This document shows, in pieces, positions 54,848-64,000 of a stretch of 64,000 bases of DNA (positions are counted from its first letter, which is position 1; each line of letters opens with the position of its first letter). A program made the translations under genes and the position numbers. Under the pieces are notes generated by a model. The model was not told the origin of the DNA. It searched no databases and saw only the letters and a list, made by a program, of their open reading frames with translations. Source of the DNA: Candidatus Epulonipiscium viviparus (lineage in GTDB: Bacteria; Bacillota; Clostridia; Lachnospirales; Cellulosilyticaceae); the NCBI RefSeq assembly GCF_030708075.1, contig NZ_CP117982.1:248001-312000 (forward strand). Reading direction: 5' to 3'.

Positions 54848-56662
54848 TTGAATACACAAAACATTTTAAATATTATGAATATTCAACTTAACGAAGTTTC
54901 AGAGCAAGAAAGTCTAAGTAATACTATTTTATTATTACTCGTGACCCGCGAAGCAGATGAAACAATAATTTCTAAATTAACTATAGCAAATGAATCAGAT
55001 ATACCCATTTTATTAAAAGAAATATTTCATTCAGTTGCAATGAATGAATTTTTACGTTTACCTATACAATATTTAAGCAAAACTAATTTAAATAATGAGA
55101 CAATAAAAAAAATTTTTACCGATATAAATCATTGGAAATTAAATAAAACTCAATATACTGAGGCAATCAATTATGTTTTTACAATTATAGAACGTACATT
55201 GCCTATATACAGTACACCTTCATACATTAATGAATTATTAATTAAATTACTGGAGCCTATAGGCGGAACTTTTTATTCAGGTACTTTAGGTATTGCATCT
55301 ACTATGATTATGGCATATCAATACGCTGCTTATCTTGGAAATACTTTAGAAATTTACGGTCAAGAAATTAATTTACAAATCTACGCGCTTGCAGTTATTA
55401 GATTATACGTCAATGGAATCTCATCACATCATATATTAGCATCTGATATGCTTACTTCTCCTATAATTAACAATTTTGACTATATTGCAATACACCCTCC
55501 TGCTAACATTGAATGGAAAGATAAGCAATCTCAAATTATCGACAGACCAGATTTATATAGTTTTGGATTTCCTCAAGTTACTACTTCTGATTGGCTTTTT
55601 TTATCACTAGCATTAAAATTACTAAATAAAACCGGTAAAGCAGTAGTACTTACCCCTGTGGGTTCTTTATTTAGAACCGGAATGGAAGAAAAGCTTAGAA
55701 CTAGAGTTATTTATTGTGATTATATAGAAGCAATTATAGAACTTCCAGAAAGAATCGTTACAAATTCATCTACTAATTTCGCTATAATAATATTTAACAA
55801 GAATAAATCTATCAAATTAAAAAATTCGATTCAATTCATTGATGCTACACAATTATATGAATCTCAAAAACGTGCTAAAAGAGCTTTAAGTATAGATAAT
55901 ATAAATGAAATAGTAAATATTTATAAATCTCAAACAGATATTGTTAACCTTAGCACAATTGTTTCTTTAACTAATCTTCGGTCTTCCAATATTTTGCCTA
56001 GTAAATATGTAACCAAAACTTCGTTTTTAAGTAATATTTATGGTGAAATTAAATTATCTATGCCCAATATAGTTTCAAACAAGACTTTAGATGATGTAGG
56101 AATTTTTTTCAGAGGCATAAATATTTTACGTAGTTATCTCCAAAATCCAAATGGTGATTTTCGAGTTATTAACCTTGCTAATGTAGAAGACGGAGAAATT
56201 AATATGGCAACTTTAACAACATATGAAGTAGATAATCGTGCTAGATTAGATATGTACCGTGTTCAAGAAGGTAATTTGATTATTTCAAATAGAGGGACCT
56301 TAAAGATATGTATAGTTCCAAAACATAAAGGCAATTTATTAATTTCCCAAAATTTTATAGGTCTTAGATTGCATAAAGGATATAATCCAGAATATATTAA
56401 ACAATTTTTACAAAGTCCTTTAGGAGAATATCTTATTAATACAAAAAGAGCAGGTAGCGCATCCCAAATAATTAATATCCGAGATTTAAAAGAAATTCCA
56501 TTTATTGAACCATTAACTCAAAATCAAACCGAAATTATAGACTCATATAATACTAAACAACAACAAATAGTCACTAAAATTGAAAAATTAGAATTAGAAT
56601 TATTAACTATGAGAAATAAATTATATGACCAAATGGGAATTTCAAAATTTTTTCAACTATAA
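54848..56662 (+). CDS. Fusion of a degenerate HsdM-like methyltransferase with an HsdS-like target recognition domain
   Basis: A 604-residue protein. The first 330 residues follow the type I N6-adenine methyltransferase fold: TPSYINELLIKLLEPIGGTF, YGQEINLQIYALAVIRLYVNG, and DYIAIHPPAN. The SAM motif, normally DPACGSGG, reads SGTLGIAS (144-151), and the catalytic NPPF reads HPPA (216-219), so methyl transfer is doubtful. Residues 365-575 resemble a single HsdS target-recognition domain (NLIISNRGTLKICIV, LKEIPFIEPLTQNQTEII), ending in a coiled-coil helix. No HsdR or nuclease gene is adjacent. Start is TTG at 54848 with AAGGAGG; expression from a consensus promoter. It may be a sequence-specific DNA-binding factor; that is inference. 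Confidence 0.82.
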   Translation: MNTQNILNIMNIQLNEVSEQESLSNTILLLLVTREADETIISKLTIANESDIPILLKEIFHSVAMNEFLRLPIQYLSKTNLNNETIKKIFTDINHWKLNKTQYTEAINYVFTIIERTLPIYSTPSYINELLIKLLEPIGGTFYSGTLGIASTMIMAYQYAAYLGNTLEIYGQEINLQIYALAVIRLYVNGISSHHILASDMLTSPIINNFDYIAIHPPANIEWKDKQSQIIDRPDLYSFGFPQVTTSDWLFLSLALKLLNKTGKAVVLTPVGSLFRTGMEEKLRTRVIYCDYIEAIIELPERIVTNSSTNFAIIIFNKNKSIKLKNSIQFIDATQLYESQKRAKRALSIDNINEIVNIYKSQTDIVNLSTIVSLTNLRSSNILPSKYVTKTSFLSNIYGEIKLSMPNIVSNKTLDDVGIFFRGINILRSYLQNPNGDFRVINLANVEDGEINMATLTTYEVDNRARLDMYRVQEGNLIISNRGTLKICIVPKHKGNLLISQNFIGLRLHKGYNPEYIKQFLQSPLGEYLINTKRAGSASQIINIRDLKEIPFIEPLTQNQTEIIDSYNTKQQQIVTKIEKLELELLTMRNKLYDQMGISKFFQL

Positions 56663-56700: not shown

Positions 56701-57933
56701 TTAATATACACTTTCTTCGCGTACTATTTCTACCGCACGTCTTAATTTATCTAAATTTCCATGTATATTATAAATATCTCTAAATATAAATTCTGCTTTA
56801 CAATTATTTTTTCGTATAATATCCATAGAAATTTTTATATATTTTCTGAATGCTTCTTCATCAAAAGATTTTTCAGCTCCCAAAAAACAGGGGGGAATTT
56901 GCTTAGAATATATAATTCCTCTTTGAGAGAGTCTTGGTGCAATAAATTGTTCATCACATAACGCAGAAACAGAAACTTTACGTAAGTTTTTTATTTGATC
57001 TATATTATTTTCCCAAAAATTACTAATAGGTTCACGACAGCCATAGTATATCATTCCAAACTCTTCAGCAACACGTTTGGTTTCTGGCAATATAAACTCC
57101 TTAAATACTTTTGATGATACCTCAAAAAATTCTTGAGCATTTATATGACCCCATGTATCACTACTTTTTACAATTCCATTAAATCCCTGCTGCGGGAGTT
57201 CATGACTAAAACAATAACTACCACCTATATAATTATTTTTATTATTCAAACATATACAACGTTCATGTTCTTGAAACCTCAGTAACCTGATAGTATCATT
57301 TGCTAAAAATGTCATTAAATTTTTAAATTCTTCAGGTTCTCTTGTGATTGAATAAAACATATTATCTCGACCTAATAACTCCAATGCTTGTTGTGTTAAA
57401 CTACAATTCCAATGATTAGTTGTATTTACTGGAACTACATCTAAAATATCTCCTAAAATATTTTGAATTTTATGCTTCTTAACTTTCAGAGCTTGTTGTT
57501 TATATGTATAGTTACTAAATGAAAGTTTTTGAAAATCTTGTTTCAAAGATCCCAAATGAGGTTTGATATAAAAATTTTGACCATCAAATGAACATATTTT
57601 ATGACTATCTAATCCATATCTTAATCCCTCTATTTCAAATTTTAGAGGATAATAGTTAGGAACTATTTTATCATCACCAAACAGATTATATGGAATAATA
57701 TTCCTTAAAAGTTCCTCTTCTATTTCTCTCGTTAAAATATTTTCACAGAATAAATCAGGTGAAATATCTTTCCAAAAAGTTAACTCTTCCATTACAATCA
57801 TTGGTATATCTCCTTTTAATTCATTATGTGCATACCAACGGTCTGTTTTTTCTGCCATGATAGGCAAATTAGCTAGTTCCCGCTGTTCTTTTGCCAGCAT
57901 ACGTAAATACTCACGTTCCCGTTTATTAACCAT
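56701..57933 (-). CDS. Uroporphyrinogen-decarboxylase-like (URO-D/MtaA superfamily) protein
   Basis: A 410-residue cytoplasmic protein that I place loosely in the URO-D/corrinoid methyltransferase superfamily because of its size, the barrel-like order, DTWGHINAQEFFEVS and the late cysteine segment YYGCREPISNFW, which recalls a metal-binding site in MtaA/CmuA-type enzymes. It is not a heme-pathway HemE. The ATG at 57933 has GGAGG in good position; the in-frame ATG eight codons earlier has none. It lies beside the glycyl-radical locus and behind the GntR gene's terminator, so it may have its own promoter. Its substrate is unknown. Confidence 0.6.
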   Translation of the reverse strand: MVNKREREYLRMLAKEQRELANLPIMAEKTDRWYAHNELKGDIPMIVMEELTFWKDISPDLFCENILTREIEEELLRNIIPYNLFGDDKIVPNYYPLKFEIEGLRYGLDSHKICSFDGQNFYIKPHLGSLKQDFQKLSFSNYTYKQQALKVKKHKIQNILGDILDVVPVNTTNHWNCSLTQQALELLGRDNMFYSITREPEEFKNLMTFLANDTIRLLRFQEHERCICLNNKNNYIGGSYCFSHELPQQGFNGIVKSSDTWGHINAQEFFEVSSKVFKEFILPETKRVAEEFGMIYYGCREPISNFWENNIDQIKNLRKVSVSALCDEQFIAPRLSQRGIIYSKQIPPCFLGAEKSFDEEAFRKYIKISMDIIRKNNCKAEFIFRDIYNIHGNLDKLRRAVEIVREESVY

Positions 57934-58078
57934 ATAATCCCTCCATTTATAACACACTTTATTACAATACAGTTATATGTTAAATATAATTTTACATATA
58001 TAATGATTTATAAATTTATATTTCAATAAATTTATTTTTTATATAAATATTATATAATACATATTATTTTTCTGCAAC

Positions 58079-58106
58079 AAAAAAGACCTAGTTATATAGG
58101 TCTTTT
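58079..58106 (-). terminator. Terminator after the GntR-type gene
   Basis: On the minus strand AAAGACCTA and TAGGTCTTT close a hairpin around TATAAC, followed by more T. It begins at the stop codon. Confidence 0.85.
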
Positions 58107-58855
58107 CATTCCATTCTTATCGTAACATTAAAACTACTTCTATCTCCTCGATATCTAGCAATAGAATATTCTATAGGAACACCTTCTTTATTTTTACCTA
58201 CTGTATAAAAAAGTTGTATAGGCTTCCCTTTTTTTATATCTAATAATTTCATGTCTTGCTCATTTGCTTCAGTTACTTCAATTCTTCTAGTTACTTGTAC
58301 AACTCTAGTGTCCAAATTTAATGATAAAAGATCATATAAACTTTCTTTTTCCATCTTGTACTTAATCAAAAATGAGCATCTCTCAAATGGTAAATATGTG
58401 ATAATAGTAACTATAGGTTCTCCATCTACCATACGTCTACGATGCATATATAATATATCTGCTCCATTTGCTAAATTCAAAACTTGTGCAATATACGATG
58501 TAGCTTTAATTTTTTTAAATCCCAGAATTTCAGTTGTTGGAATTTTGCCAAGTCTTTGCATCTCACTATTGAAGCTTTCTATTTGTTGTACAAAAACATG
58601 ATGCAGTTTCTGTTTTGCAACAATAGTCCCTTTTCCTTTTTGACGTGTCAAATAACCCTCTCTGACCAAATCAAGCACTGCTTGCCGTACAGTAGTACGA
58701 CTTATATTATACATGTTACTCAATTCGAGTTCAGTGGGAATCATTGTACCAACAGGATAAAAGTTTGATTCTATATCGCTCAGTAGAATTTGTTTTAATT
58801 GATAAAACATAGGAATAGGTGCTAATTTGTCAATGGTTTTGGTTTGTTTATCCAA
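58106..58855 (-). CDS. GntR-family (HutC/UTRA) transcriptional regulator
   Basis: A 249-residue regulator. The winged helix-turn-helix is in residues 15-80 (LELSNMYNISRTTVRQAVLD, LTRQKGKGTIV); the C-terminal UTRA ligand-binding domain (95-245) has MHRRRMVDGEPIVTIITYLP and ends EYSIARYRGDRSSF. HutC-type regulators sense sugars, sugar phosphates or small metabolites. It is divergent from the glycyl-radical operon (253 bases apart), so it is the likely local regulator. A promoter with TTGATT and TAATAT at 58890-58918 lies upstream. Confidence 0.93.
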   Translation of the reverse strand: MDKQTKTIDKLAPIPMFYQLKQILLSDIESNFYPVGTMIPTELELSNMYNISRTTVRQAVLDLVREGYLTRQKGKGTIVAKQKLHHVFVQQIESFNSEMQRLGKIPTTEILGFKKIKATSYIAQVLNLANGADILYMHRRRMVDGEPIVTIITYLPFERCSFLIKYKMEKESLYDLLSLNLDTRVVQVTRRIEVTEANEQDMKLLDIKKGKPIQLFYTVGKNKEGVPIEYSIARYRGDRSSFNVTIRME

Positions 58856-59035: not shown

Positions 59036-59082
59036 TTGACATAACACAAAAATGCTGGTATCATAATGTTGTAACATTGATA
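59036..59082 (+). promoter_or_regulatory. Promoter and palindromic operator of the glycyl-radical operon
   Basis: TTGACA (59036-59041) and TATCAT (59059-59064) are 17 bases apart. Immediately after lies AATGTTGTAACATT (59065-59078), a perfect six-base inverted repeat with a two-base centre; the flanks TATCA and TGATA extend the symmetry. It overlaps the expected start of transcription and is the natural site for the divergent GntR-type regulator. Confidence 0.65.
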
Positions 59083-59108
59083 CATAAAATTTGTATAGGA
59101 GGTAACTA

Positions 59109-59975
59109 ATGACAGGAATAATTTTTAATATACAGCGTTTTAGTACTAGTGATGGACCCGGAATCAGAACTACAATTTTTTTTAAGGGCTGTAACTTAAG
59201 ATGTCAATGGTGCCACAATCCTGAATCTTATATTCCAACAATACAATTAATGTGGAATAGCGAGCAATGCGTCTCTTGTGACGCATGTACTATAAACTGT
59301 CCTAGCAGTATACCACACAACAATCGCATAAACAACCAAAAATGTCAAAATTGTGGAAAATGTGTCGATGCTTGTTTATATAGGGCATTAACAATATCAG
59401 GTGAAGAAAAATCTTCTGATGAATTAGTTGCCTTAGTAAAAAAAGATATGATATATTATAAAAATTCTGGCGGAGGACTCACTCTATCTGGAGGAGAAGT
59501 TTTACTGCAATCTGATTTTGCTGCAGACATTTTTAAAAAAACTAAAGAGCTTAATATACATAACTCACTTGATACGGCTCTTAATGTACCTTTTCATAAT
59601 ATAAAAAAAGTTTTGCCATATACTGATTTAGTTTTGCTCGATTTAAAATTAATGAATTCTCATAAACATCATAAATATACAGCCGTTAAAAATGAACTAA
59701 TACTAGATAATTCACGACGTCTTTTCGACACTGGGATTGAAGTCCATATACGTGTTCCAGTAATTAAAAATATAAATGATAGTATAGAAAATATGCATAC
59801 TTTACTAGATTTTATCGAAGGATATGATAATGTCACGAAAGTCGAATTGCTACCTTATCATGATATGGGCATCAACAAATCCAATATGATCGGCATAGAA
59901 AGCACAACATTTGAGCCACCCCTACAAAATTGCCTAAATGAGCTAAAAATGCTAATTAAAACAAGGAGGTCATAG
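59109..59975 (+). CDS. Glycyl radical enzyme activase (radical SAM)
   Basis: A 288-residue radical SAM activase that abstracts the glycine hydrogen of its partner enzyme. The N-terminal IQRFSTSDGPGIRTTIFFKG leads into the cluster motif CNLRCQWC; two further 4Fe-4S motifs follow (CVSCDACTINC and CQNCGKCVDAC), as in activases of dehydratase-type glycyl radical enzymes but not of pyruvate formate-lyase. GGGLTLSGGEVLLQ is the SAM-binding GGE segment. AGGAGG precedes the ATG. The stop is four bases from the enzyme gene. Confidence 0.95.
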   Translation: MTGIIFNIQRFSTSDGPGIRTTIFFKGCNLRCQWCHNPESYIPTIQLMWNSEQCVSCDACTINCPSSIPHNNRINNQKCQNCGKCVDACLYRALTISGEEKSSDELVALVKKDMIYYKNSGGGLTLSGGEVLLQSDFAADIFKKTKELNIHNSLDTALNVPFHNIKKVLPYTDLVLLDLKLMNSHKHHKYTAVKNELILDNSRRLFDTGIEVHIRVPVIKNINDSIENMHTLLDFIEGYDNVTKVELLPYHDMGINKSNMIGIESTTFEPPLQNCLNELKMLIKTRRS

Positions 59976-59978
59976 TTA

Positions 59979-62279
59979 ATGGACTCAATTTTAGAAAAAA
60001 AGATAGAAGCTTTATTTGGACGTTCTGTAAAAGAAACTTTTATGGAACGAATACAATATACGTTTGAAACCGAATTTATGTTTGCAAATGACAGCTTTGC
60101 AGTTAAATATGGAAAAACTTTATATCATATTTTAGATAATATTTCGGTTGTTCTAGAAGATGATATGAAAATCGTTGGTTGTGTTAAAGTACGTATACCC
60201 AAAGATTCCGAAGTCGAGGAAATCTTAAAAGTATATCATCGCTGGTGGGATATGTCTGTTGAAGATCGATTTAAAAAGGTCGCTTTCTATTATACAAATG
60301 GATGGTTAAAATGTCGCCCATATTGGTTTGCTAGCTTTGGTCATCTTGGCATAGATTATGAGGACCTAGTGTTCAATGGATATGATTCTATCATAAAACG
60401 TGCACAAACTAGATTAACTAAAAGTTGCAATGAAAAGCAACAAGAGTTTTTAAACGGCATAATTATTTCTATTCAAGCATTGAGCAATTTTTATGAGCGT
60501 TATGCTACTGCAGCTGTGGCTGCGGGCAAAATTGATCTTGCCGATGATCTAAAAACTATAGCGCATCAACCTGCCAAAACATTCAAACAAGCATTACAGC
60601 ATATTTGGTTAAACACATTAGTGCTACAAAAAGTTTCAGGATGCGGAGTTTTAAATTTTAGTAGATTAGATAAATATCTACAACCGTTATATGATCAAGA
60701 TATCAAGGCTGGCATTTTAACTCGCGAAGAAGCCTTAAACTTAGTTGAAGAATTCTATTTTAGAAACAACGAAATGATGGCTCAAACTGATCATATGTCT
60801 GAAGAAACTGCCGGCACCAAGGATACTCTTGAATTAGCATTCGATGACCCTAACTATTTAACACTTGGAGGAATAAATGCAGATGGGACTTCCGCAGTAT
60901 GTGAACTTTCTTATATAATGCTAGAAGCTGCAAATGAAATGCGTCTTCGAAATCCATTTATTGTTGTACGATACCATGAAGGAATTGCTGAAGACTTTTG
61001 GAAATTGTGTGCTAAAGCCATGCGAAACAATGCGACAGTCGTAGTATATAATGACGAAACTATGATCCCAGCATTAAAATATCACAATATTTCTGCACCT
61101 GAAGTGTATGATTATGGATTTTGGGGATGCAACGATCCCAATATTGCTGCCTATGAAGGCGGACTTCGACAACTGTGGATGAATATGGCTAAACCTTTAG
61201 AGCTTGCTTTGCATCAAGGTGATTATCCATTAGAGCCTAAAAAAGAAGAAGATGTAGCCAAAGAATGTGCGTGGAGCATCGAAGACCGCATGATGGGAAT
61301 AATGATAGGTCCATATTATGGAATTAAAACCAAGCCTGCTAACGAAATCAACTCTATGGAAGAATTTCTAAAAATCTTTGAAATACAATTCGATCATCTC
61401 ATTTCAGAATTTCGAAAAGGTTTCGAAGCAGATTTTATTATTGAACAACACGAAACTATTGGCAAGATGCGCATTGAAGATTGCTTCTTAAAAGGAACCA
61501 TTGAAAATGCAGTCACTTGGACAGAAGGCGGAACCAAATATCATAAAATTGTAGCGCAAGGCTGCGGTCTTGCAACTGTTATTAATGCATTATATATAAT
61601 TGAAAAAGTAGTCTTCGATGAAAAGCTTTTAACATTAGAAGAACTTGCAACAATGATGCGTAATAACTACGAGGGCAATGAACATTGGCGTTTAAAATTT
61701 AAGAACAAATATCCAAAATTTGGTAACGATATTGATGAAGTTGATAAATATGCTCAAATTATAACTGATATATTCATGCGTATAATAGCAAAACACAATG
61801 GCCCTGAATATCTATATCAATTTTGGCCCACATATTCAACCGATAGAGCATTTACAATTATGGGTGAACATGTCGGAGCAACTCCAGATGGACGTCTAGC
61901 TCGAGAGCCTATTAGTGAAAATCAATCGCCTGCTGATGGAAGCGATCTTGAAGGTGTAACTGCTATGTTAAATTCTCTTAGCAAAGTACCTTTCAACCGC
62001 ATCACAGGCGGACCATTAAACTTAAGGCTTCATCCAACAGTTGCCGCAGGAGATAAAGGTATTGATACTGTCGCCGCATTATTAAAAACTTATATGCAAA
62101 AAGGAGGAATGCAGCTTCAACTCAATGTCATCGATGCGGAAACCTTAAAACTTGCACAGGAAAATCCAGATAAATACCGCAGTTTATGTGTTCGAGTAAC
62201 AGGGTATAGTGCATTTTTTGTTGAAATGGGTAAAAAAGCTCAAGATGAATTAATTCATCGTACGCAACATCAAATTTAA
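59979..62279 (+). CDS. Glycyl radical enzyme with a Cys-Asn-Asp active-site motif
   Basis: A 766-residue glycyl radical enzyme. The C-terminal radical site is RVTGYSAFF with Gly742, 25 residues from the end. The thiyl cysteine is Cys384 in YGFWGCNDPNIAAYEGG. Pyruvate formate-lyase has two adjacent cysteines and the known dehydratases and C-N or C-S lyases have GC-x-E; here the residue is Asp386 (GCND), so I cannot place it in a characterised subgroup. Neighbours (activase, Zn dehydrogenase, FGGY kinase, GntR) point to anaerobic breakdown of a polyol, sugar acid or related compound. No encapsulation peptide or shell gene is seen, so it is probably cytosolic. Confidence 0.9.
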   Translation: MDSILEKKIEALFGRSVKETFMERIQYTFETEFMFANDSFAVKYGKTLYHILDNISVVLEDDMKIVGCVKVRIPKDSEVEEILKVYHRWWDMSVEDRFKKVAFYYTNGWLKCRPYWFASFGHLGIDYEDLVFNGYDSIIKRAQTRLTKSCNEKQQEFLNGIIISIQALSNFYERYATAAVAAGKIDLADDLKTIAHQPAKTFKQALQHIWLNTLVLQKVSGCGVLNFSRLDKYLQPLYDQDIKAGILTREEALNLVEEFYFRNNEMMAQTDHMSEETAGTKDTLELAFDDPNYLTLGGINADGTSAVCELSYIMLEAANEMRLRNPFIVVRYHEGIAEDFWKLCAKAMRNNATVVVYNDETMIPALKYHNISAPEVYDYGFWGCNDPNIAAYEGGLRQLWMNMAKPLELALHQGDYPLEPKKEEDVAKECAWSIEDRMMGIMIGPYYGIKTKPANEINSMEEFLKIFEIQFDHLISEFRKGFEADFIIEQHETIGKMRIEDCFLKGTIENAVTWTEGGTKYHKIVAQGCGLATVINALYIIEKVVFDEKLLTLEELATMMRNNYEGNEHWRLKFKNKYPKFGNDIDEVDKYAQIITDIFMRIIAKHNGPEYLYQFWPTYSTDRAFTIMGEHVGATPDGRLAREPISENQSPADGSDLEGVTAMLNSLSKVPFNRITGGPLNLRLHPTVAAGDKGIDTVAALLKTYMQKGGMQLQLNVIDAETLKLAQENPDKYRSLCVRVTGYSAFFVEMGKKAQDELIHRTQHQI

Positions 62280-62300
62280 TTTGTAGGAGGCAATTTTAAT

Positions 62301-63320
62301 ATGAAAAGTTTTATAGTAGAAAAAGACGGTAAAATGAGAATTGGTGAAGTTTCAAATCCAGTTATATCTTCCACTCAGGCATTAGTAAAAACTATTGCTT
62401 GTGGAATGTGTGGTACAGATATTAAATTGATTCACCGAACATTTAAGGGTTTTCCAGAAGATGTTTATCCTATAACTTTAGGACACGAAGGCGTTGGTGA
62501 AGTTATAGAAGTTGGCACAGACGTCAAAGGCTATAAAATTGGAGATAAAGTTCTTTTGCCATTTGCAACATCAGAAGGATACGGATCTGGTTGGGGAGCT
62601 CTCAGTGAATATGCAGTGGTCGATGATGTCAAAGCATTTCCCAAAGGTGAGGAGCCAGTATGGGGATTCGCACAAACTGTTCTTCCTGACGACATTGATC
62701 CCGTTGATGCTGTCATGCTTGTAACATTTAGGGAAGTGCTAAGTAGTATTAGATATTTTGACATCAAAGCTGCAAATTCAATTGTTGTGTTTGGGTGCGG
62801 ACCTGTCGGATCAACATTTATCAAATTTTTATCACTTACAGGTGTAAAAAATATTATTGCAGTAGATATCTTTGACGACAAATTAGAAATCGCTAAATCC
62901 ATCGGGGCTACACATACTATTAACAGTAAAGATCAAGATTTAGCTGCCGCTGTTCGTGCTATTTATCCAGATGGAGTAGATTTCGTATTAGATGCAGTAG
63001 GTCTTCCATTTATTGTAAATCAAGCAATGGCATTAATTAATGACCGCGGAGCTGTGCTTTGCTATGGAGTTCCTGAAAAAGAAGAAATTACCATTGATTT
63101 TAGTAAAGCTTCTTACAATTTTAGAGTTATATATCAACAAATGCCTAGAAAAGACGAAGAAGGTGCCGCAACCGATCAAGTTCTCGAGTGGGTTAGAAAT
63201 GGGCAGCTAGTAATTAAAGATTTTATCTCTGATTATTTTAAATTTGAAGACAGCGTTGAAGCATATGAAAAATTATTAGCACGTAAAATCCTAAAAAAAG
63301 GCATTATAACTTACAATTAA
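62301..63320 (+). CDS. Zinc-dependent medium-chain dehydrogenase
   Basis: A 339-residue MDR-family alcohol or polyol dehydrogenase. Catalytic zinc ligands are in ACGMCGTDIKLIH (Cys) and LGHEGVGEVIEVG (His-Glu); the four-cysteine structural zinc lobe is absent. The NAD(P) fold shows VVFGCGPVGSTFIKFLS, with an acidic residue at the end of the second strand (AVDIF), favouring NAD. It probably oxidises an alcohol made or used by the glycyl radical enzyme, or the polyol that becomes the kinase substrate. AGGAGG precedes the ATG; 21 bases follow the enzyme stop. Confidence 0.9.
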   Translation: MKSFIVEKDGKMRIGEVSNPVISSTQALVKTIACGMCGTDIKLIHRTFKGFPEDVYPITLGHEGVGEVIEVGTDVKGYKIGDKVLLPFATSEGYGSGWGALSEYAVVDDVKAFPKGEEPVWGFAQTVLPDDIDPVDAVMLVTFREVLSSIRYFDIKAANSIVVFGCGPVGSTFIKFLSLTGVKNIIAVDIFDDKLEIAKSIGATHTINSKDQDLAAAVRAIYPDGVDFVLDAVGLPFIVNQAMALINDRGAVLCYGVPEKEEITIDFSKASYNFRVIYQQMPRKDEEGAATDQVLEWVRNGQLVIKDFISDYFKFEDSVEAYEKLLARKILKKGIITYN

Positions 63321-63332
63321 AAGGAGATCATT

Positions 63333-64000
63333 ATGTATTTAATAGCTCATGATATTGGAACTTCTGGTAATAAAGCAACTCTTTTTTCTGTAGACGGAAA
63401 ACTCATTACTAGTGTAACTCATGCCTATAATACTCATTATTTTAACGAAACTTGGGTTGAACAAGATGCTAATGATTGGTGGAATGCCGTTTGTATCACC
63501 ACTCGCTCCTTAATTGCAGATGCACAAATTGACCCAACTGAGATTGCTGCAGTCAGCTTTAGTGGCCAAATGATGGGCGCCTTATGCGTTGATAAATCTG
63601 GTAATCCGTTACGACCATCCATTATATGGGCGGATCAACGTGCAACAGCTCAATCAGATCAAATCGCAAAACAAATTACACAGCGAGATTTTTATCATAT
63701 AGTTGGTCATAGAAATACACCATCATATGGACTACAAAAGTTGATGTGGATTCGTGATAATGAACCAGATATTTATGCAAAAACTTATAAAGTATTAAAT
63801 GCTAAAGACTTTATAGTTCTCAAACTAACTAATCAATTTTACACTGAACCTTCTGATGCAAACAGTATGGCTTGTTTTGACTTAAACACCTGGGAATGGT
63901 CAGATAAAATTCTTGCTGCTGCAAAAATAAGTAAAGATAAATTTCCAGAAATTAAGCCATCCACTTTTGTTGCAGGAGGTGTAACCAAAGATGCTGCCAT
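63333..64000 (+). CDS. FGGY-family carbohydrate kinase, 3' end beyond the right edge
   Basis: The first 222 codons of an FGGY kinase, cut by the window. The phosphate-binding motif is AHDIGTSGNKATLFS, the substrate-binding segment VSFSGQMMGALCVD, and the catalytic Asp is in SIIWADQRA. It differs clearly from xylB at 44429-45952, so it is not a copy of it; xylulose, ribulose, erythrulose or a sugar acid are all possible substrates. AAGGAG precedes the ATG, 12 bases after the dehydrogenase stop, so it is the fourth gene of the glycyl-radical operon. Confidence 0.92.
   Translation, partial: MYLIAHDIGTSGNKATLFSVDGKLITSVTHAYNTHYFNETWVEQDANDWWNAVCITTRSLIADAQIDPTEIAAVSFSGQMMGALCVDKSGNPLRPSIIWADQRATAQSDQIAKQITQRDFYHIVGHRNTPSYGLQKLMWIRDNEPDIYAKTYKVLNAKDFIVLKLTNQFYTEPSDANSMACFDLNTWEWSDKILAAAKISKDKFPEIKPSTFVAGGVTKDAA

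Follow-up and report, generated by a model that had tools for sequence, protein, structure and literature searches.

A rare clade of glycyl radical enzymes with a Cys-Asn-Asp loop, and its operon of possible sugar or polyol catabolism, in Candidatus Epulonipiscium viviparus

Near the end of a 64,000-nucleotide stretch of the genome of Candidatus Epulonipiscium viviparus, a giant bacterium of the fish gut (the window; C1:248001-312000 of the single 3.28 Mb contig), an operon encodes an oxygen-sensitive glycyl radical enzyme (GRE) in which the active-site residue Cys384 is followed by Asn-Asp. We found this Gly-Cys-Asn-Asp (GCND) enzyme to belong to a clean, rare and uncharacterized clade, having a partial pathway around it but no decisive clue to the substrate. 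The operon enzyme probably removes a hydroxyl from some sugar-like compound, letting the cell split and ferment the product. More specifically, and tentatively, it may well be a radical dehydratase whose product, a deoxysugar intermediate, is eventually cleaved by the deoxyribose-phosphate aldolase DeoC. GREs perform much of the breaking of carbon–heteroatom bonds in anaerobic guts and the Cys-X-Glu (CXE) motif is treated as a hallmark of their eliminases; a clade keeping Asp across Epulopisciaceae, Lachnospiraceae and a Synergistaceae lineage marks a reaction without an assignment. The link to DeoC suggests a route for fermenting polyols or rare sugars that, to our knowledge, is on no pathway map, and it yields a short list of candidate substrates.

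A GRE clade with an invariant Cys-Asn-Asp loop

The protein is certainly a GRE, with a Gly loop, a Cys loop, a PFL-like barrel (Pfam PFL-like, E 1e-97; Gly_radical, E 2e-25) and an adjacent activase. Its sequence matches the GRE on E. viviparus contig NZ_ABEQ01000008.3 at 100% identity. Alignment to glycerol dehydratase placed C384-N385-D386 on Cys433-Val434-Glu435, and thereby the GCND motif on the active-site Cys loop, where it had been read. Together with Arg397-Gln398, the motif was invariant in all ten clade members, that is the E. viviparus enzyme and nine homologues at 46–77% identity, with Glu found at C+2 in 14 of 14 other aligned GREs. The Cys-Asn-Asp loop that the original prediction set apart from x-Glu is thus real, but it amounts to CxD in place of CxE: the clade departs from the strict CXE motif, stated as conserved across GRE eliminases (PMC7077986), and nevertheless keeps the acid at C+2. 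A literature search limited to open-licence papers gave none naming a CxD GRE. The Gly loop of the clade reads RVTGYS, and that of the other aligned GREs RVAGYS or RVSGYS/RVxGYS.

The homologues came from two other Epulopiscium genomes (77% and 70%), Faecalicatena contorta (65%), a Eubacteriales metagenome-assembled genome (MAG; 65%, partial), the Lachnospiraceae genome G722 (59%), one Synergistaceae MAG (54%) and three genomes of another genus in the Epulonipiscium family (46–48%). In about 1,750 sampled genomes, members were found in 1 of 398 of the phylum, 3 of 397 of the F. contorta family and 7 of 24 of the Epulonipiscium family; phylum- and class-level samples held no further ones, the Synergistota sample held the known one only, and phage and plasmid collections held distant GREs only, all below 60% identity. 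In a 30-sequence tree, the clade was supported at 100/100, its stem measured 1.49 changes per site and none of the characterized references tested fell inside it; long branches leave the identity of its sister group uncertain. The enzyme scored 377 bits against the PFL2/glycerol dehydratase subfamily model TIGR01774 (cut-off 678) and at most 338 bits against the HpfG, HpsG, HypD, CutC, PflD, HPAD, IAD and PFL equivalogs (cut-offs 994–1150). It belongs to none of the curated characterized families, while seeming most eliminase-like in its working.

Active-site residues and the likely reaction type

An AlphaFold2 model built from nine clade sequences alone reached a pLDDT of only 60, whereas one from a 24-sequence alignment, enlarged by a tenth clade sequence and 14 GREs from outside the clade, had a pLDDT of 88 and a pTM of 0.89. 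The best fold match of this second model was glycerol dehydratase (TM 0.80, 26% identity), followed by other eliminases. Assigning residue roles from sequence alignment, we found H122 at the place of His160 in HypD, the trans-4-hydroxy-L-proline dehydratase (His164 of glycerol dehydratase), and D290 at that of Asp339, the latter tentatively because residues 270-290 were modelled at low confidence; both places are essential in HypD (PMC7077986). Beyond this likeness, the enzyme lacks the Asp278 and Glu436 of HypD and scored 282 bits against its cut-off of 1100. Gly223 aligned with HypD Asp278/glycerol dehydratase His281, Ser620 with Tyr640, and Arg397 with Asp447 (or His446, the loop being one residue shorter). 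The residues His281, Asp447 and Tyr640 (1R9D numbering), which we take to bind the diol in glycerol and propanediol dehydratases, are therefore not kept, and the clade has an insertion of its own at about 283-290.

The best PDB matches, by sequence and fold, were glycerol dehydratase (1R8W/1R9D) and propane-1,2-diol dehydratase (5I2A/5I2G, 9RCO), which share the Cys loop, the Gly loop and the active-site His with our enzyme. However, Glu, His281/Ser282, Asp447 and Tyr640 of glycerol dehydratase are here Asp, Gly223/Val224, Arg397 and Ser620, and these pocket residues together with the separate placement of the clade in the tree led us to reject either identity. A formate-lyase was likewise rejected, as Cys is followed by Asn with no adjacent Cys pair and the score was 122 bits against 994.

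The change from Glu to Asp keeps an acid at the same position and, judged by alignment, would alone imply no new reaction chemistry. This exchange of acid for acid, with the invariant Arg397, leaves radical elimination as the most likely reaction. One could instead suppose that Asp386 and Arg397 take part in a different kind of radical chemistry, for instance decarboxylation or carbon–carbon cleavage. The Asp278/His281 acid and Tyr640 are missing, Arg397 and the insertion are new, and these changes reshape the pocket; moreover, a Cys-x-acid loop is found in aryl-acetate decarboxylase GREs too. With dehydratases as the closest sequence and fold matches, and decarboxylase models scoring 210 and 198 bits against cut-offs of 1150 and 1100, we regard such a non-eliminase as very unlikely.

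The operon and a proposed route to DeoC

The activase, GRE, dehydrogenase and kinase genes (Table 1) lie on the + strand, separated by 3–21 bases and preceded by Shine-Dalgarno-like sequences. The activase scored 327.6 bits against TIGR02494 (cut-off 174.35), with the radical S-adenosylmethionine (SAM) CxxxCxxC motif at C28, C32 and C35 and ferredoxin four-Cys sets at C54/57/60/64 and C79/82/85/89, and was thus of the ferredoxin-insert type as predicted. The dehydrogenase of the medium-chain dehydrogenase/reductase (MDR) type, MDR_A, has just four Cys overall and hence no structural-zinc tetrad, in agreement with its reading as a one-zinc enzyme, and the FGGY kinase indeed follows in the same operon. 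Past the window (genome C1:312872-322000), the operon continues with a GldA-like dehydrogenase that scored 277 bits against a solved glycerol dehydrogenase, followed by a GatC-type IIC permease, a URO-D-family protein, DeoC and a ribose-type ABC transporter; it also holds another GldA-like enzyme and a symporter that was assigned by eye to the GPH type. The IIC permease stands alone, with no IIA or IIB adjoining; the operon has the ABC transporter and the FGGY kinase instead. DeoC passed the equivalog model TIGR00126 (234 bits, cut-off 117), and since the genome has a further deoC (48% identical) that stands alone at a different locus, the copy in the operon seems to be a dedicated one. In Epulopiscium SCG-B11, the genes for the GRE, dehydrogenase, kinase, GldA-like enzyme and DeoC (77%) follow in identical order. 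These neighbours point to sugar or polyol chemistry, as had been suggested; the operon extends past the kinase, where DeoC and the transporters give a partial pathway.

Table 1. Features of the operon and its upstream region in the window
Feature	Position	Strand	Details
GntR/UTRA-family regulator	58106..58855	-	divergent from operon; Pfam UTRA + GntR
Putative sigma-70-like promoter, TTGACA-17-TATCAT	59036..59064	+	sequence reading
Imperfect palindrome ATGTTGTAACATTGATACAT	59066..59085	+	just 3' of -10; sequence reading
Activase	59109..59975	+	288 aa; radical SAM with two-cluster ferredoxin insert; TIGR02494 and Cys pattern
GRE, GC-N-D clade	59979..62279	+	766 aa
Cys384-Asn385-Asp386 of active-site loop (GRE)	61128..61136	+	read from sequence and alignment
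Gly742, radical glycine of RVTGYSA (GRE)	62202..62204	+	read from sequence and alignment
One-zinc MDR dehydrogenase (MDR_A)	62301..63320	+	339 aa; Pfam ADH_N + ADH_zinc_N
FGGY kinase	63333..64000	+	511 aa in genome; gene cut by window edge

From the established genes, clade, conserved residues, operon and association of MDR_A, FGGY kinase and DeoC, we infer a reaction type, an order of steps and an origin of the DeoC substrate in the GRE product. The operon would be catabolic, serving an imported sugar-like compound. The activase would generate the radical at Gly742, whereupon Cys384, as a thiyl radical, would abstract a carbinol hydrogen; the hydroxyl proton would be accepted by Asp386 with the help of His122, as it is by Glu in other eliminases, and the neighbouring hydroxyl would depart as water, leaving a deoxygenated aldehyde or ketone. 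Phosphorylation of either substrate or product would in Epulonipiscium fall to the FGGY kinase, DeoC would cleave a 2-deoxy-sugar phosphate to acetaldehyde and glyceraldehyde 3-phosphate, and the dehydrogenases would balance redox. For this organism, the simplest guess at the substrate is some polyol, such as a pentitol, in its free form or as a phosphate; other sub-clades may act on other compounds.

Several lines of evidence speak for this dehydratase route. The nearest sequences and folds (glycerol dehydratase, propanediol dehydratase, HplG and HypD) are all dehydratases, the acid at C+2 and H122 are retained, and DeoC is a true one by its cut-off, is kept in the SCG-B11 operon and has a second copy in the genome. 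As independent support from Lachnospiraceae, 5 of the 16 loci read around relatives of the dehydrogenase also have DeoC close by, and 5 have a GRE of another type, as detailed below. Other observations weigh against it. The F. contorta (65%) and G722 (59%) loci have no DeoC, with galactonate-dehydratase or KDPG (2-keto-3-deoxy-6-phosphogluconate) aldolase genes instead; the leaving-group acid of HypD (Asp278), or its glycerol dehydratase counterpart, is Gly223 here; the usual substrates of FGGY kinases are ketoses or polyols rather than 2-deoxyaldoses; and the operon DeoCs form no supported clade of their own. Use of galactosylglycerol or floridoside as a source of galactose and glycerol was also considered and set aside, with no galactose enzymes in the Epulonipiscium operon.

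Gene contexts of the clade and alternative substrates

The F. contorta locus comprises a two-permease ABC transporter, a dehydrogenase, GH2, a KDPG-type aldolase, a lactonase-like protein of the phosphotriesterase (PTE) family, galactonate dehydratase (655 bits, cut-off 311), activase, GRE and a DgoK-like kinase. Locus L008 retains a galactonate-dehydratase-like gene, and L010 the same plus a PTE-family gene. In G722, the dehydrogenase (70%), kinase (66%), GldA (70%) and regulator (48%) of Epulonipiscium all have orthologues, accompanied by a shikimate-dehydrogenase-like protein, a glucose-6-phosphate isomerase (GPI) cupin, a PTE-family protein, KDPG aldolase and a 2-hydroxyacid dehydrogenase; G583 and its relatives have a similar context with another kinase and other dehydrogenases.

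Such neighbours would fit a GRE whose substrate for dehydration is an anionic polyol, be it an aldonate or another sugar acid or some other such compound, and whose Arg397, invariant in the clade in place of the diol-dehydratase Asp, holds the carboxylate or phosphate; 2-keto-3-deoxy-type intermediates or their relatives would then pass to KDPG/DgoA-like aldolases in most members. The galactonate-dehydratase gene kept in L008 and L010, and the KDPG aldolase and PTE genes in G722 and G583, agree with it. However, F. contorta already has an ordinary galactonate dehydratase among these genes, the KDPG/PTE block is found also without a GRE, and the Epulonipiscium operon has no sugar-acid enzymes, for which reasons we consider a sugar-acid substrate unlikely.

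The five-gene block of G722 (shikimate-dehydrogenase-like/GPI/PTE/KDPG/2-hydroxyacid dehydrogenase) occurred, whole or in part, without a GRE in regions read, so that the GRE as its missing dehydratase was rejected as a general rule. The block recurs in Lachnospiraceae (L031:12721-15870, L027:14646-17941, L077:8982-13249 and others), its shikimate-dehydrogenase-like protein has no Pfam match, and it looks like a sugar pathway without assignment.

Comparison with other GREs acting on sugar-derived substrates

E. coli YbiW and PflD are 1,5-anhydrohexitol-6-phosphate lyases whose deoxysugar product is taken by an aldolase (PMC12441222), and in acting on sugar-derived alditols with an aldolase downstream they resemble the proposed route. 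Their substrates are phosphorylated by the phosphotransferase system (PTS); the E. viviparus operon has ABC import, an FGGY kinase and DeoC, besides the lone GatC-type IIC permease. With this precedent, the GRE could open the ring ether of an unphosphorylated anhydro-sugar or anhydro-alditol that the FGGY kinase phosphorylates afterwards. A GldA-like enzyme accompanies the GCND clade in three contexts, gldA presumably lies near pflD in E. coli, and red-algal diets contain anhydro-sugars. Yet the PflD model gave 290 bits against 1109 and the clade stands apart from PflD in the tree, the Epulonipiscium operon has no fructose-6-phosphate-aldolase-like gene, and the clade organisms share, as far as known, no algal diet, making ring-ether opening very unlikely.

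The best equivalog score of the GRE, 338 bits (cut-off 1000), was to HpfG, the (2S)-3-sulfopropanediol (DHPS) dehydratase, whose anionic diol substrate shows that charged diols are acceptable to GREs. Identity with that enzyme was rejected, as a true HpfG (1715 bits) is the second E. viviparus GRE, at another locus (L014, genome C1:2510001-2528000). There it neighbours GH31, a transaldolase-like protein, an activase and an iron-type alcohol dehydrogenase in what is likely a sulfoquinovose/DHPS locus; HpfG-dependent sulfoglycolysis in Epulopiscium has been mentioned (PMC11489063).

A recurring dehydrogenase/kinase/DeoC module

Searching 260 Lachnospiraceae genomes with MDR_A joined to the shikimate-dehydrogenase-like protein, we found homologues of the dehydrogenase in 17 genomes besides G722. 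DeoC was nearby in 5 of the 16 loci read (L082, L090, L091, L093, L094), with an FGGY kinase in four of these five, and a GRE lay within about 10 kb in 5 of 16 (L082, L093, L094, L096, L097), of the ACWE, GCVE and GCQE types and not GCND; the dehydrogenase of L096 and L097 was just 35% identical. Assuming a chance of 0.03–0.05 per locus for a GRE so close, a rough guess from the few GREs per genome, the probability of at least 5 of 17 loci having one is 0.0001–0.001. Several dehydrogenase clusters had no GRE in view. The module ties GRE chemistry to the MDR_A dehydrogenase and, in three loci, to DeoC. It is conceivable, although we hold it doubtful, that the GCND enzymes make up a new isofunctional family which, by means of Arg397 and of Asp where others use Glu, deoxygenates some sugar, polyol or sugar acid hitherto unknown among GRE substrates. 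It would then be one of several GRE families funnelling different sugars into a shared dehydrogenase/FGGY-kinase/DeoC route in gut Lachnospirales, in which the deoxyribose-phosphate aldolase acts after radical deoxygenation.

Two of the other GREs (L082:5478-7556, L093:15264-17618) have an A-C-W-E loop, not G-C-x-E, and a Gly loop RVWGWSG, and adjoin an MDR_A-like dehydrogenase and DeoC. Two more (L096:6657-8903, L097:10559-12850) have a G-G-C-Q-E loop and lie beside an activase and the distant MDR_A-like dehydrogenase.

Upstream region and neighbouring genes

The palindrome ATGTTGTAACATTGATACAT is a candidate operator for the GntR/UTRA-family regulator, homologues of which adjoin the same operon in L009 (57%) and in G722. 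A further GRE, with an FGCTEF loop and no NCBIfam match at the threshold used (L009:1886-4216 and L060), lies just 3' of a fructose-type PTS gene and 5' of the operon regulator in Epulopiscium SCG-B11. Farther upstream in the window, positions 56701-57957 (-) encode a 418-aa protein with no Pfam or NCBIfam match, by eye reminiscent of URO-D/methyltransferase-like proteins and distinct from the operon's URO-D protein, which sits outside the window, and positions 54848-56662 (+) encode a 604-aa single chain in which a part similar to HsdM of type I restriction systems precedes a specificity part similar to HsdS.

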